Shown piece after piece: positions 54,555-60,719 of a stretch of 64,000 nucleotides of DNA. The position numbers were made by a program, and so were the translations under genes. This DNA is from Prevotella sp. (GTDB taxonomy: Bacteria; Bacteroidota; Bacteroidia; Bacteroidales; Bacteroidaceae). The notes below the pieces were generated by a model, which saw only the letters and a list, made by a program, of their open reading frames with translations, was not told the origin of the DNA and made no database searches. The stretch spans positions 1 through 64,000 of the forward strand of contig JAFPZD010000250.1 in the NCBI GenBank assembly GCA_017417465.1. The letters run 5' to 3'. Numbering within the stretch: position 1 is the first letter of the stretch; the number at the start of each line of letters is the position of its first letter.

Positions 54555-54628
54555 CGAAAATTTGTTCATACTCCCAAGTCTTTTTGCGAAAAACAGCCTT
54601 TTCCTTTTGATTTATCACGTTTTTTTAG

Positions 54629-54636
54629 TACTTTTG
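54629..54636 (+). promoter_or_regulatory. Promoter TTTG-N19-TACTTTTG for the GT-DUF4922-SpoIID gene
   Basis: TTTG at 54606-54609, a 19-base spacer and TACTTTTG at 54629-54636, 19 bases before the ATG. Confidence 0.75.
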
Positions 54637-54655: not shown

Positions 54656-57600
54656 ATGACTCAACAGACCGACATTTTCATGCCTTTCGGGGTGGCAGAA
54701 CACGACGAAGCACTGCTCACATCACTGCTCAACAGCCCTGCCATCCGACATATCGTACTGCTCACCGACCAGCCGACGAGTAACCACCACGACGCCACGG
54801 AGACGCTGGTGCTTCCTGGGCGCATCGCCGCCACAGCATCGCTACGCCTGATAGCCGCTCAGAGCGAGGCCGACTACGTATGCCTTGTCACCAAATCCAC
54901 GCCGCTGCAGCTTGGCGAAGGGTCCATCGAGCGTCTGCTCCGCGTGGCTACCGACAGTGGTGCAGCAATGGTCTACGCCGACTATCTTGAGAGGGAGGAG
55001 GAAGGAATAAAGAAGCATCCTGTCATTGACTACCAGACAGGGGCTGTCCGTGACGACTTCGACTTCGGACCCCTGCTGTTCGTTCGTGGCGACCTGCTGC
55101 GGCAGTGGGCACGCGAGGCTGACGGCGACTGGCAGTATGCTGGGCTCTACGACTTGCGTCTCTTCCTCAGCCGACAGGGCGAGTTGCTCCACCTGAACGA
55201 ATTCCTCTACACCGTAGTCAACGACGACCAACGCCTGTCGGGCGAGAAGCAGTTCGACTACGTGAATCCGGCCAACCGCGACGTGCAGATTGAGATGGAG
55301 CAGGTGTGCACACGCCACCTGGCTGCCATCGGAGCCAAGCTCGACACATCGAGCCCGCTGACCGTCGACTTCGACGAACAGCCCTTCAACGTGGAGGCAT
55401 CGGTCGTCATTCCTGTCTACAACCGTGCACGTACCATTGCCGACGCTGTGAACAGCGCCCTCAGCCAGCAGGCTTCGTTTGGCTTCAACGTCATCGTCGT
55501 CGACAACCACTCCACCGACGGCACCAGCGAATTGCTCGCCAACATCGCCGACGAGCGTCTCATCGTCATCACCCCTGAGCGCCACGACTTGGGCATAGGT
55601 GGCTGTTGGAACGCTGCCATCAACAACGCTGCCTGCGGTCGCTTCGCCGTGCAGCTCGACAGCGACGACCTCTACGCTTCGCCACACACACTGCAGCGCA
55701 TCGTCGACGAGTTCCGCCGACAGAAGTGCGCCATGGTCGTCGGCAGCTACCGCATGTGCGACTTCCAGCTGCAGACGCTGCCGCCAGGACTCATCGCCCA
55801 CCGTGAGTGGACCGACGAGAACGGGCCAAACAACGCCCTGCGCATCAACGGTCTTGGCGCCCCACGCGCCTTCTTCACACCACTGTTGCGCGAGCTACAG
55901 CTGCCCAACACCAGCTATGGCGAAGACTATGCCATGGGCCTCGCCTTCTCACGCCAGTATCGCATCGGGCGCATCTACGACGAGCTCTACCTCTGCCGAC
56001 GCTGGGATGGCAACAGCGACGCCGCCCTCAGCCAAGAGCGCATCAACGCCAACAACCTCTACAAGGACCGCCTACGCACCATAGAGATTAAGGCCCGCCA
56101 GCAGCTAAACACCCAACGCACCACACGCGACACGACTCGCTTCTCAATCCCCAATCTTCAGTCTTCGCCTCTCTCACGCTACTTCGACCGCCAGCTGCGA
56201 ACGTGGCCAGCCACCTGCCAGCGCTATCGCGACCTGACAAAGGTGGAGACGCGCGAACTCGTGGCCGACGCCTTCACCTTCGTGGCCCAGCATAACCCTG
56301 CACGCATCCGTTCAACAGGTGCCGACATCAGCAAGGAGGCACTCGCCGCACGCCCCTGCTTCCTCTGCCGTGACAACAGGCCCACAGAACAGCTGACAAA
56401 GCCCCTCGGCAGTGGCTTCGAACTACTGGTGAACCCCTACCCCATCCTGCCGATGCATTTCACCATTGCAGCCACAAAGCACCAGCCACAGCAGGTGCGT
56501 GGCATGTACAGCGAGATGCTGCGGCTACTGAAGACTTACCCAGAGCTGACCGTCTTCTACAACGGACCGCTCTGCGGAGCCTCCGCACCTGACCATGCCC
56601 ACCTGCAGGCAGCCATCACCACCGGTCGCGACGGCGACAGCCTGCTGCCCCTGCAACGCCAGTGGCAACGCCTGCAGCACAACCTCGACACCATTATCGA
56701 GGGCGACGACGGCTCCTCGCTGAACGTTGTCAACGACTACCCATGCGCATGCCTGGCCATCCGTGCCAAGAGCAGCACGCAGAGCCAACAACTCTTCGCC
56801 CTCCTTTATAATGAGATGACAATTGCCAAGGGACAAAGCGAGCCTATGATGAACGTGCTCTGCTGGCAACAGGCCGACGAGTTGCTCACCATCGTGTTCC
56901 CACGACAGAAGCATCGTCCAGACTGCTACTACCAGAGCGACACCCCACTCATGGTCAGTCCTGGTGCACTCGACATGGCAGGCCTGATTATCACGCCACG
57001 ACAGGAGGACTACAGCCGTCTCACAGCACAGCAGGCACAGGCCATCATCCATGAGTGTGCACTCACGGCACCTGCCCTTCAGGCACTTGTCGACCGTCTG
57101 CGTCAGACGGCCACAAAGCCACACTACACCTCGTTCTACATCGACGAGCCGCAGGTCAGCGTTGGCATCGTCAGCGCCGAAAGCATCGACTTCGTGCTCA
57201 ACGGCAGCTATCAGGTTAAAGGCGAGACGGTCAGCGGACGCCATACCGTCGCCGTCAGCGAGGGGGCTCTCCTCTGGCGTGGGCAGCAGTACCGTGAGCT
57301 GCGCTTCACACCACTGGCCACAAGCACCTCGTCGTTCACCCTCGACGACGTCACCATCGGCGTAGGGTTCCACTGGGAGCGCCACGAAGCACAGACTTTC
57401 CACGGGGTGCTACACCTCGTCGTCGAGTCCGACCGCGTGCAGGCCATCAACGAGCTACCCGTAGAGCAGTACCTCGAGAGCGTCATCTCAAGCGAGATGA
57501 GCGCCACCTCGTCGGCAGAGCTTCTCAAGGCCCACGCCGTCATCTCACGCTCATGGCTTCTGGTGCAGATGAAGCACCGTGAGGAGCGCGCACGACGAAA

Positions 57601-58366
57601 GGGCGAGAGCAGCTTCTTCTCGTTCATCAAGAAAGACGACGAACTGCTGAGATGGTACGACCGCGAAGAGCACACACTCTTCGACGTCTGCGCCGACGAC
57701 CACTGCCAGCGCTACCAGGGCATCACGCGTGCCTATAGCCCAGCCGTCAGCGAGGCCGTACGCGCCACACGCGGACAGGTGCTGCAATACGACGGCCAGC
57801 TCTGCGACGCACGCTTCTCGAAGTGCTGTGGCGGGCGCACCGAGGAGTTCCAGTATTGCTGGGACGACACGCCAAAGCCCTACCTCGTCTCCGTACAAGA
57901 TCCCTTCTGCAACACACGCGACCGCAAGGTCCTCGCGCAGGTGCTCAACGACTACGATCAGGAGACGCCCGACTTCTACCAGTGGCGCGTCGACTACACG
58001 CAGGAGCAGCTCAGCGAGCTCGTCAGCCGTAAGCTGAAGATGGACTTCGGCACCATCACCGACCTCGTACCACTCGACCGAGGAAAGAGCGGGCGCATCT
58101 GGCGTCTGAAGATCGTGGGCACCAACCGCACCTTCACCATCGGCAAGGAGCTCGAGATACGACGCGCACTCTCCGAGACTCACCTTTACAGCTCAGCCTT
58201 CGACGTCGAGAAACGCGCCGGTCACTTCATCCTCAACGGCCACGGCTGGGGACACGGCGTAGGCCTCTGCCAGATTGGCGCTGCCATGATGGGCGAACGT
58301 GGCTATAGCTATAGCGACATCCTCCTCTACTATTACCGTGGAGCACAGATCTCCAAAGTCTACTGA
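54656..58366 (+). CDS. Trifunctional fusion: glycosyltransferase(s) - DUF4922 (HIT/GalT-like) - SpoIID/LytB domain
   Basis: A 1236-aa fusion with no signal peptide or membrane segment. Residues about 1-235 look like a degenerate GT-A domain ([24 protein letters not shown]). Residues 243-480 are a clear GT2 glycosyltransferase ([20 protein letters not shown], then QLDSDDLY as the metal motif). Residues about 535-815 are DUF4922: [10 protein letters not shown], then DHAHLQAA, the His-x-His-x-Gln signature of HIT/Ap4A phosphorylase/GalT enzymes. Residues about 830-1236 are SpoIID/LytB ([37 protein letters not shown]), a denuded-glycan lytic transglycosylase domain normally exported. The stop is followed by AmpG-like permease 262 bases on. 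Together these suggest cytoplasmic handling of glycan fragments. Three chemistries in one chain is the key oddity. Confidence 0.85.
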
Positions 58367-58628: not shown

Positions 58629-59945
58629 ATGAAGCAACAGAGGAACCCATGGTCGTGGATACCGACCCTTTACATAGCTGAAGGACTGCCCAACGTCATC
58701 GTAATGACCGTAGCCGTAGTGATGTACATGCAGTTAGGGCTCACCGACACCGAGATAGGCCTCTACACCTCGTGGCTCGGCCTGCCATGGGTCATCAAGC
58801 CGCTGTGGAGCCCCTTCGTCGACCTTTACAAGACGAAGCGCTGGTGGGTGCTCGCCATGCAGCTGCTCCTCGGCTCGTCGCTGGCAGGCGTCGCCTTCAC
58901 CCTGAACACGCCGCTATGGTTCCAGGGCACCATGTGCTGCTTCTTCCTGATGGCCTTTTCAAGTGCCACCCACGACATCGCCGCCGACGGTTACTATATG
59001 CTTGAGCTCGACGAACACCGCCAGGCTCTCTTCGTCGGCATCCGCAACACGTTCTACCGCATTGCCGTCATCTTCGGTAACGGTGTCCTTGTCCCTGTGG
59101 CCGGCATGCTCCAGATTGTCTACCGCAATCAGAAAGCCTTCACCTGGAGCCTTGTCTTCTTCGGCATGGCAGGCCTGTTCATAGCCATCTGGCTCTACCA
59201 CGCCTACATCATGCCACGCCCAGCTGCCGACAAGCCCCACGACACCAGTGTAAGTGAGGTGGTGAAGGGCATCGGCCAGATGTTCTCGTCGTTCTTCCAC
59301 AAGCTGCCGCCACGCGGCATGCTCTTCGCGTTGCTCTTCCTCATGCTCTACCGCTTCCCTGAGGCTCTGCTGACGAAGATGAGCGCCACCTTCCTCATGC
59401 GCCCAGGCAGTGAGGGAGGCCTCGGCCTCTCACCACAGGAGTTCGGCCTCGCTAACGGCACAGTGGGCCTCATTGGCCTGCTCCTCGGCGGCATCGTCGG
59501 TGGGTGGCTCGCCAGCCGCGACGGTCTCAAGCGGTGGCTATGGCCCATGGTCTGCGCCATCACCCTCCCTGACATCGTCTACGTGCTCATGAGTTTCCTC
59601 ATGCCCTCCAACCTGCTGCTCATCAGCGTCTGCCTCTTCATCGAGCAGTTCGGCTACGGCCTCGGCTTCACAGCACTTACCCTCTACATGCTCTACTTCT
59701 CCATGGGCGCCTTCAAGACGTCACACTACGCCTTCTGCACAGCCATCTCCTACCTCGGACTCATGCTCCCTGGCATGCTCTCAGGCTACCTGAAGGATGC
59801 CGTCGGCTACCGCACATTCTTCCTCCTCGTCATGGCTTTCTGTGCCGTCACCTTCATCGTCACCGCTCTCATCAACATCGACCCAGCCTTCGGCAAGAAG
59901 AGCCCTGTCGACAGTACAGAAAGCGACGTCGAGGAGCAGGCATAG
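58629..59945 (+). CDS. AmpG-like MFS permease
   Basis: A 438-aa major-facilitator protein with about 12 membrane segments. The N-terminus (SWIPTLYIAEGLPNVIVMTV) and LGLPWVIKPLWSPFVDLYKTKR with the MFS loop-2 region closely follow the AmpG family, which carries anhydro-muropeptides into the cytoplasm; FSSATHDIAADGYY with paired acidic residues in segment 4 is also AmpG-like. It is directly downstream of the SpoIID-containing fusion, so import of a glycan fragment for cytoplasmic cleavage is a reasonable reading. No typical NagZ or AmpD gene lies nearby. The cargo is not proven. Confidence 0.88.
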   Translation: MKQQRNPWSWIPTLYIAEGLPNVIVMTVAVVMYMQLGLTDTEIGLYTSWLGLPWVIKPLWSPFVDLYKTKRWWVLAMQLLLGSSLAGVAFTLNTPLWFQGTMCCFFLMAFSSATHDIAADGYYMLELDEHRQALFVGIRNTFYRIAVIFGNGVLVPVAGMLQIVYRNQKAFTWSLVFFGMAGLFIAIWLYHAYIMPRPAADKPHDTSVSEVVKGIGQMFSSFFHKLPPRGMLFALLFLMLYRFPEALLTKMSATFLMRPGSEGGLGLSPQEFGLANGTVGLIGLLLGGIVGGWLASRDGLKRWLWPMVCAITLPDIVYVLMSFLMPSNLLLISVCLFIEQFGYGLGFTALTLYMLYFSMGAFKTSHYAFCTAISYLGLMLPGMLSGYLKDAVGYRTFFLLVMAFCAVTFIVTALINIDPAFGKKSPVDSTESDVEEQA

Positions 59946-60000
59946 GAATTTCCCTAACAAAAAATAGGCATTTCTCCTTTGCAGAACGCAAAAAAATGCG

Positions 60001-60008
60001 TACCTTTG
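60001..60008 (+). promoter_or_regulatory. Promoter TTTG-N19-TACCTTTG for lipoprotein
   Basis: TTTG at 59978-59981, a 19-base spacer and TACCTTTG at 60001-60008, about 30 bases before the lipoprotein start. Confidence 0.75.
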
Positions 60009-60038
60009 CACCAGAAACCTCTTAACAACATGCACCTT

Positions 60039-60719
60039 ATGAAGAATATCTACCATTACCTCGTAATCGCAGCCACCATCCTGACGGCCACGACGGTCCT
60101 TACCAGCTGCGAAGAAGAAGACGACTACATCGCACAGCAGCTACGCAATGCCGACTGGCAGGGTTACGTAGGCGCCTATTACAGCGACCGTTGGAACCTC
60201 AGCGGCTCAGAGTATGCCACCGTAATGCACTTCTCGTCGAAGGGCGAGTATTACACCAGCGGTCGTGGCGAAGAGCTCAACTACAACACGCGCTCACCCC
60301 ATCGCGACTATGCCTACTGCACCTTCAAGTGGTTCATCGTCGACGGTGAGATCACCCTCATCTACGACGACTCAAAGTGGAACCCCATCTACATCATTGA
60401 CTACGGCATCAACAGCAACCGCTTCTGGGGCTACATCTACGACGGCAGCAGCCGGCGCATCAAGTTCGACTTCGAGAACACCAACTACGATGACTGGGGC
60501 TACTACGGCCACACGGGCAGCTACGGCGACTTCTACGACCAGAACTACTACTGGTCGCGCAAACGCACCGATAACACAACGGAGAACATCGCCCCCAATG
60601 GCTCTACCGAGGCAATCCCCCTCATCGACCGTACCGCCCTCGTACGCCAGGAGAGTGGTGTCGCCGATGCCGTCAGCATCGCCAGCGGCTCCTTTGCCAA
60701 AGCCATGCAAGACTGGTGA
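60039..60719 (+). CDS. Lipoprotein of unknown function
   Basis: A 226-aa predicted lipoprotein. MKNIYHYLVIAATILTATTVLTSC gives a signal peptide with Cys in a lipobox (LTSC) at about residue 24, here split as ILTATTVLTSC. The mature part is strongly acidic and aromatic, with many Asp, Asn, Tyr and Trp (DDYIAQQLRNADWQGYVGAY; RFWGYIYDGSSRRIKF), suggesting a beta-sandwich carbohydrate- or calcium-binding surface protein. ATG at 60030, three codons earlier, is also possible. No known family is recognised. The promoter is at 60001. Confidence 0.7.
   Translation: MKNIYHYLVIAATILTATTVLTSCEEEDDYIAQQLRNADWQGYVGAYYSDRWNLSGSEYATVMHFSSKGEYYTSGRGEELNYNTRSPHRDYAYCTFKWFIVDGEITLIYDDSKWNPIYIIDYGINSNRFWGYIYDGSSRRIKFDFENTNYDDWGYYGHTGSYGDFYDQNYYWSRKRTDNTTENIAPNGSTEAIPLIDRTALVRQESGVADAVSIASGSFAKAMQDW

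Follow-up and report, generated by a model that had tools for sequence, protein, structure and literature searches.

Within a 64,000-nucleotide stretch of Prevotella sp. DNA (positions 1 to 64,000 of contig JAFPZD010000250.1, assembly GCA_017417465.1; hereafter the window), one gene encodes a protein of 1236 amino acids in which a family 2 glycosyltransferase (GT2), a DUF4922 domain and a SpoIID domain are joined in a single chain. Its frame has no internal stop, and the next gene downstream encodes an AmpG-like importer of the major facilitator superfamily (MFS). Here the fused protein is described as a candidate enzyme of peptidoglycan recycling.

The fused gene and its domains

An earlier note, made from the letters of the window, had placed GT2, HxHxQ and SpoIID motifs in this one frame, and all four of the motifs that it quoted are found. 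The profile search that it proposed for the three segments puts each of them over its Pfam cut-off, with Glycos_transf_2 at residues 249-371 (2e-21), DUF4922 at residues 509-653 (1.2e-59) and SpoIID at residues 925-1045 (8.3e-25). Across the aligned homologues, each of the three domains keeps its catalytic residues; conservation is counted here over rows that differ from one another and exceed a length limit (81, 80 and 60), some of which are overlapping stretches of one genome. The features of the locus are given in Table 1.

Table 1. Features of the fused gene and its immediate surroundings in the window
Feature	Position	Strand	Remarks
Promoter-like site TTTG-N19-TAnnTTTG	54606..54636	+	Ends 19 bases before the start codon
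Whole fused gene	54656..58366	+	1236 codons plus stop; same fusion in homologues
N-terminal conserved region, residues 1-240	54656..55375	+	Perhaps a second, degenerate GT-A domain
GT2 catalytic domain, residues 249-485; DSDD at 335-338, ED at 423-424	55400..56110	+	
DUF4922/Ap4A-phosphorylase-like domain, residues 499-820	56150..57115	+	Pfam, model, Apa2 alignment
HxHxQ site (H647, H649, Q651)	56594..56608	+	80/80 rows
SpoIID/LytB domain with its N-terminal part, residues 831-1236	57146..58363	+	
E947, aligned to the SEM/GEM glutamate of SpoIID (C. difficile E101)	57494..57496	+	60/60 rows
HX5CX3HC motif (H1006, C1012, H1016, C1017)	57671..57706	+	Each 60/60 rows
C-terminal SpoIID signature, GHGVG-type	58238..58279	+	Motif read and row conservation
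AmpG-like MFS importer, next gene downstream	58629..59945	+	262-base gap; MFS_1 and BT1 over cut-off

The first of the three domains is assigned to glycosyltransferase family 2 by its Glycos_transf_2 score of 77.1 bits, over the cut-off, and by its DxD and ED motifs, and D335, D337, D338, E423 and D424 are present in 81/81 rows. Ahead of it lies a further conserved region that the earlier note had overlooked, residues 1-240, in which no Pfam family scores over its cut-off and in which R93, G129, R132, D134 and F135 are kept in 81/81 rows. A 495-residue model of the GT2 part (predicted local distance difference test score, pLDDT, 86.2) has strands and helices in this region. The best Foldseek matches to the whole part are two-domain GT-A polymerases, such as the K4 chondroitin polymerase (7.8e-18, template modeling (TM) score 0.35-0.41), and on this account residues 1-240 may form a second GT-A domain that has degenerated. 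The GT2 part differs from these polymerases in its low identity (14-16%), in a root-mean-square deviation of about 22 over both domains and in the absence of a Pfam match to the first domain.

The DUF4922 domain gives a model with a pLDDT of 92.1, for which the best structural match is the yeast Ap4A phosphorylase Apa2 (4.8e-12, TM score 0.50-0.56 over about 330 columns), followed by plant ADP-glucose phosphorylase (4.2e-7) and GalT (1.4e-5) with TM scores of 0.34-0.39. The model and the Apa2 match together indicate an Apa/GalT-type fold over the whole domain, and the DUF4922 profile also finds Apa2 by sequence (2.5e-6). As in Apa2 and the other Apa/GalT members of the HIT superfamily, there is an HxHxQ site with a nucleophilic histidine, all three residues of which are invariant; H649 is aligned with the Apa2 histidine that is alanine in chain 4i5v. 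The domain is only 16-18% identical to Apa2 and has two invariant cysteines, C568 and C571 (80/80 rows), the second of which is not cysteine in Apa2. Nor is it an Ap4A phosphorylase proper, with Pfam Ap4A_phos_N at 17.0 bits against a cut-off of 23.1 and ATP_transf at 16.3 against 23.5; among five relatives, one (L104) passes Ap4A_phos_N with 28.9 bits. The modeled fold makes nucleotidyl transfer or phosphorolysis the likely chemistry, in keeping with the HIT/GalT-like activity that the earlier note had suggested.

The C-terminal domain belongs to the SpoIID/LytB family, the NCBIfam SpoIID_LytB profile covering residues 929-1234 with 185.8 bits against a cut-off of 83.3, and SpoIID structures 4rwr, 5i1t and 5txu are matched at E-values of 2.3e-21 to 3.6e-18. 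The stage II sporulation protein D equivalog TIGR02870 is matched with 144.5 bits, below its cut-off of 234.75. The catalytic glutamate, E947, is aligned with that of the SpoIID structures and is present in every row, and the HX5CX3HC motif can be equated with H134, C140, H145 and C146 of C. difficile SpoIID by pattern only, as the spacing differs by one and the HMMER alignment is not in register. In the C. difficile enzyme, E101, C140 and H145 are needed for activity in vitro and H134 and C146 are partly dispensable (PMC6221140). The domain thus shares with the SpoIID lytic transglycosylases of B. subtilis, C. difficile and W. chondrophila the catalytic glutamate and the GHGVG-type C-terminal signature, together with the C. 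difficile-like HC motif; unlike them, it stands in a protein without a leader, is joined to nucleotide-using domains and falls below the sporulation equivalog cut-off. The SpoIID of W. chondrophila acts as a muramidase on denuded glycan (PMC6635528), so that hydrolysis is possible within this family.

Fused and separate forms among relatives

The earlier note gave the impression of a singular enzyme, but the protein is the fused form of a widespread gene set, the separate-gene version of which is annotated in Tannerella forsythia as gtf-gtf-lytB beside ampG (PMC5388701). Among the best 80 of at least 593 matched stretches (the best named loci), 78 have titles naming Prevotella, Prevotellaceae, Xylanibacter, Segatella, Leyella or Hoylesella. 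All three domains are found, at least in part, in one frame in 79 of these 80, the other (L144) being cut by a contig end; within the 79, L114 and L171 look frame-shifted in the SpoIID domain, and contig ends truncate several. The triple fusion also occurs in the single-contig genomes G170 and G633. Although the assembly is fragmented (278 contigs) and has a contamination estimate of 5.53%, the probability that misassembly or a missing stop codon produced the fusion, a point that the earlier note had wanted checked, is practically negligible, since chance and artefact are excluded by homologues that share the same fusion. The same assembly has a second triple-fusion copy, 60% identical, at the end of a contig (G000:C148:1-3351, L068); this copy is either a paralogue or derived from a second Prevotella in the bin.

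A P0001 match is found in 150 of the 151 genomes of the window's family. In 14 of the 151 there is either no match or one weaker than 1e-100, so that 137 have all or much of the module. DUF4922 is matched in 73 of 295 genomes of the order Bacteroidales, two of them weakly (G365, G457), and in 6 of 198 genomes drawn from the class. The separate adjacent genes that the earlier note had thought to look for in Prevotella relatives are not the rule among the best named loci, mostly of Prevotella type, where the domains are fused, but they are common elsewhere in the order. There the domains are mostly encoded by two or three neighboring genes or are fused in pairs, as GT2 with DUF4922 (e.g. L095) or DUF4922 with SpoIID (e.g. 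L092). On a quick tree of 63 loci with 20 open forks, from which three duplicate genomes had been removed, the four fusion states need 11 changes and the triple-fusion label needs 4, of which 2 are forced by starred branches; such recurrent fusion suggests that the parts work together. In family f131, weak DUF4922 matches occur in frames of about 500 codons (L080:9242-10768; genome G457), and in L080 the module genes are not near this frame, which therefore has a different architecture.

Absence of an export signal

The start of the fused gene is bounded by an in-frame TAG at 54626, ten codons upstream of the ATG, and by the promoter-like site, whose TTTG-N19-TAnnTTTG arrangement follows the Bacteroidetes promoter consensus. 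TAnnTTTG lies within 60 nucleotides of an in-frame ATG before the GT2 domain in 59 of the 80 best named open reading frames (ORFs) as against 53 of 4000 shuffled 60-mers, in a comparison that is uneven because the ORFs had several candidate ATGs and the shuffled 60-mers one window each. With the start bounded in this way, the possibility that an incorrectly called start conceals a leader or signal peptide is ruled out. In agreement with the earlier note, which saw no signal peptide or membrane helix, neither is found in the fused protein by a simple Kyte-Doolittle hydropathy scan rather than a trained predictor (12-residue maximum 1.32 in the first 40 residues, 19-residue maximum 1.27 over the whole chain).

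The same holds for the SpoIID proteins that are encoded by stand-alone genes of the module, represented by 20 complete ORFs of 400-500 residues in which the domain starts before residue 15. Loci L073, L076, L086, L091 and L094, where the ORF runs on upstream or the profile starts later, were left out, although the usual domain start is readable inside four of them. All 20 begin straight with the domain, all have the HX5CX3-4HC motif and their leader hydropathy maxima are 0.23-1.90. Export to the cell wall, a trait of the SpoIID/LytB family, is thus indicated by hydropathy neither for the fused protein nor for any of these 20. As a comparison of chosen sets, 20 non-module SpoIIDs of the order were hand-picked from lower-scoring or second matches: none has HX5CX3-4HC, and 18 have a leader hydropathy of at least 1.99, that is, score as having a signal peptide. 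Of the two exceptions, L197 (1.53) is leader-like by eye and L204 (1.17) has an uncertain start. These sequence features point to two SpoIID classes in the order, one of them probably cytoplasmic. The second class, with a signal-like N-terminus and without the motif, is represented by L194-L213, and several genomes hold both classes.

The AmpG-like gene and the wider locus

An AmpG-like gene follows the module in 32 of the 36 usable loci of the order (38 extended loci minus L080, with weak DUF4922 only, and L106, cut by a contig end), and adjoins the fusion in 70 of the 74 best named loci that are not cut by a contig end; in L114, L127, L133 and L155 there is none within 1.5 kb. A second, divergent AmpG-like gene directly follows the first in some Prevotella-type loci (L108, L112, L145, L149, L167, L179 and L183).

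In L090, where the domains are encoded separately, the gene order is GT2, DUF4922, SpoIID, AmpG, NamZ and, further on, MurQ, the last two being over their cut-offs. Between NamZ and MurQ lie genes for a glycolate/D-lactate-oxidase-like protein, a NagX-like membrane protein and a BadF-type ATPase, the latter scoring 31.1 bits, just under the cut-off of 31.5, and MurK-like by position. MurQ releases D-lactate, which the oxidase-like protein, an FAD/FeS (iron-sulfur) protein encoded between NamZ and the NagX-like gene (L090:14299-17100), could oxidize. NamZ is the protein named YbbC in T. forsythia. The operon Tanf_08345-08385 of that organism consists of genes for xanthan lyase, gtf, gtf, lytB, ampG, ybbC, murT, murK and murQ, shown by reverse-transcription PCR to be co-transcribed (PMC5388701), and L090 has the same order from the first gtf to ybbC, and then murQ. 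The second gtf is here equated with DUF4922 and lytB with SpoIID by gene order and names, not from T. forsythia sequences. In T. forsythia each of the three enzymes has a gene to itself and no assigned function, whereas in the window they form one chain, and its genome has no match to MurQ, NamZ or AnmK.

The T. forsythia AmpG imports both GlcNAc-anhMurNAc and GlcNAc-MurNAc, the disaccharides of N-acetylglucosamine (GlcNAc) with 1,6-anhydro-N-acetylmuramic acid (anhMurNAc) and with N-acetylmuramic acid (MurNAc), and AnmK is not predicted in this organism; the authors state that the processing of AmpG-imported fragments was still being addressed (PMC7670621). The idea that the locus belongs to a sugar-nucleotide operon together with the upstream galactokinase-like, nucleotidyltransferase and epimerase genes was set aside, as these genes are divergent and in the same-genus loci L096 and L097 an RlmN gene stands directly beside the module instead; a defense system was also set aside, there being no PADLOC match.

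AnmK and other recycling genes

Across the 295 genomes of the order, AnmK is found in 11 of the 71 whose DUF4922 match is full, as against 188 of the 224 others; when the two weak DUF4922 genomes are counted as positive, the figures are 13/73 and 186/222. By family, AnmK is absent from 15 and mixed in 4 of the 19 families in which all sampled members have DUF4922, and none has it throughout, whereas in the 90 families in which no member has DUF4922 it is present in 73, mixed in 7 and absent from 10. In the 11 families that are mixed for DUF4922, AnmK is found in all members of 3, in none of 5 and in some of 3; the two genes are opposed within family f139.

The canonical AnmK/NagZ/MurQ route is not recovered in the genome of the window itself, which has no match to AnmK or NamZ, none to MurQ at E 1e-40 and no GH3 protein over the NagZ cut-off (best match 45.3 bits against 207); at 90.8% completeness of the genome, these absences are not certain. 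For the AmgK/MurU branch, the best MurU-like match has 111 bits against a cut-off of 250, and three APH matches are over the cut-off. In the window's family MurQ (E 1e-40) is found in 44 of 151 genomes. By hand count, 39 of the 137 genomes with the module have it and 98 do not, so that MurQ catabolism is not a requirement of the module; this is compatible with both sugars going back into nucleotide-sugar pools. The module would have the same presumed AmpG-supplied substrate as the AnmK/NagZ branch but has no sequence relation to it, and would be a functional replacement.

Proposed function

We consider it fairly probable that the fused protein is an enzyme that recycles peptidoglycan in the cytoplasm. 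It would be the single-chain version of a Bacteroidales GT2-DUF4922-SpoIID module that processes AmpG-imported GlcNAc-anhMurNAc and GlcNAc-MurNAc, and it probably stands in for the missing anhMurNAc kinase AnmK. Location and pathway, that is, the cytoplasm and AmpG-fed wall recycling, are the parts that can be held with good confidence. Cytoplasmic action on imported glycan fragments had been proposed in the earlier note and accords with the adjacent AmpG-like gene, the leader-free stand-alone SpoIIDs and the kept catalytic residues. The probable replacement of AnmK is proposed from the patterns of absence together with SpoIID chemistry, and the chemistry of each domain is one that we infer.

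In a possible, though on balance doubtful, first step, the SpoIID domain would act on the 1,6-anhydro end and convert anhMurNAc to MurNAc. The GT2 domain would then exchange GlcNAc between the disaccharide and a nucleotide, and DUF4922 would transfer or phosphorolyse the nucleotidyl group through a histidine intermediate to give GlcNAc-1-phosphate; these two steps, taken together, we regard as unlikely to be right in this form. In this way MurQ, AnmK and NagZ would all be bypassed in the return of both sugars to nucleotide-sugar pools. The boldest version, drawn from family chemistry and in our estimate a long shot, is a phosphate-driven route unlike that of NagZ and AnmK, in which imported GlcNAc-anhMurNAc would have its 1,6-anhydro ring opened by the SpoIID domain, the GT2 domain running in reverse would give a nucleoside diphosphate sugar, NDP-GlcNAc, and DUF4922 would act as an NDP-sugar phosphorylase and release GlcNAc-1-phosphate. 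The net reaction would be disaccharide plus phosphate to GlcNAc-1-phosphate plus MurNAc, with the glycosidic energy conserved and channeled within one chain.

A number of observations weigh against this proposal. A GT2 enzyme running backward would be unusual, and the SpoIIDs characterized in the papers cited here cut glycan strands; we know of none that hydrolyses free anhMurNAc. The AnmK contrast ignores kinship above the family level, and in families f73, f108 and f129 AnmK and DUF4922 are not opposed; AnmK is kept in those 11 of the 71 DUF4922 genomes, 36 of the 295 have neither, and NagZ offers no contrast, its cut-off being passed by none of the 295. The linkage of the parts is strong but not universal. 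By hand count in 37 order loci with full DUF4922, SpoIID is fused or adjacent in 30, lies some genes away in 3 (L071, L075, L103) and is not in the stretch in 4 (L083, L084, L100, L101); in G328 it is on the same contig, about 1.4 Mb apart. Genomes G032 and G574 (L223, L224) have a GT2-SpoIID-AmpG set without DUF4922, which is found elsewhere fused to a second GT2. This cuts both ways, as the operon is looser and yet GT2 is again fused to DUF4922. The AmpG-like neighbor is below the NCBIfam AmpG cut-off (TIGR00901, 165 bits against 350), and the functional T. forsythia AmpG is 27% identical to that of E. coli (PMC7670621). T. forsythia grew poorly on anhMurNAc alone (PMC7670621).

An anabolic role, in which DUF4922 and GT2 synthesize a nucleotide sugar and attach it to a muropeptide end made by SpoIID or to a protein, so that glycosylation is fed by recycled wall sugars, is unlikely but is the normal, forward direction for GT2 domains; the GT2 catalytic residues are kept, and the T. 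forsythia authors describe their operon as including protein-glycosylation genes (PMC5388701). The recurring neighbors identified, which were annotated in L090 only, include AmpG, NamZ, the BadF-type ATPase and MurQ, with neither an acceptor nor a flippase gene among them, and this role would leave the missing AnmK unexplained. The literal version of the earlier note, in which the SpoIID domain is a lytic transglycosylase of the cytoplasm that cleaves longer glycan strands after their import, fits the conserved glutamate and HC motif and the adjoining importer. It is nevertheless improbable, as the major substrates of the T. forsythia AmpG are disaccharides without an internal MurNAc-GlcNAc bond, even though muropeptide uptake is possible (PMC7670621), and as the product of a lytic transglycosylase, anhMurNAc, could not be phosphorylated by most of these genomes. 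The SpoIIDs characterized in the papers cited here act outside the cytoplasm, and so the fused protein or its SpoIID end might leave by an unrecognized route and act on periplasmic peptidoglycan; this is very improbable in view of the bounded start, the contrast between 20/20 leader-free module SpoIIDs and 18/20 chosen non-module SpoIIDs with hydrophobic leaders, and the need of the partner domains for nucleotides.

If the recycling role is correct, the module names candidate proteins, a single fused one in Prevotella, for the processing of wall disaccharides without AnmK, the step stated as open for T. forsythia (PMC7670621). It also suggests that some SpoIID enzymes form a cytoplasmic class and provides a first functional frame for bacterial DUF4922. 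The Bacteroidales are dominant gut and rumen bacteria, and the proposed route could be tested with the fused protein as a single-chain reagent. Among the open-licence papers listed, none gave a function for bacterial DUF4922 or for the gtf-gtf-lytB trio, and none had the phrase cytoplasmic or cytosolic SpoIID; in two plant papers, DUF4922 appears only as a domain label on relatives of GDP-L-galactose phosphorylase.

Beyond the AmpG-like gene, the window has a 246-residue ORF (59979-60719) that is lipoprotein-like by eye and has no family match; a relative of it is found in the same position in one same-genus genome (L098).

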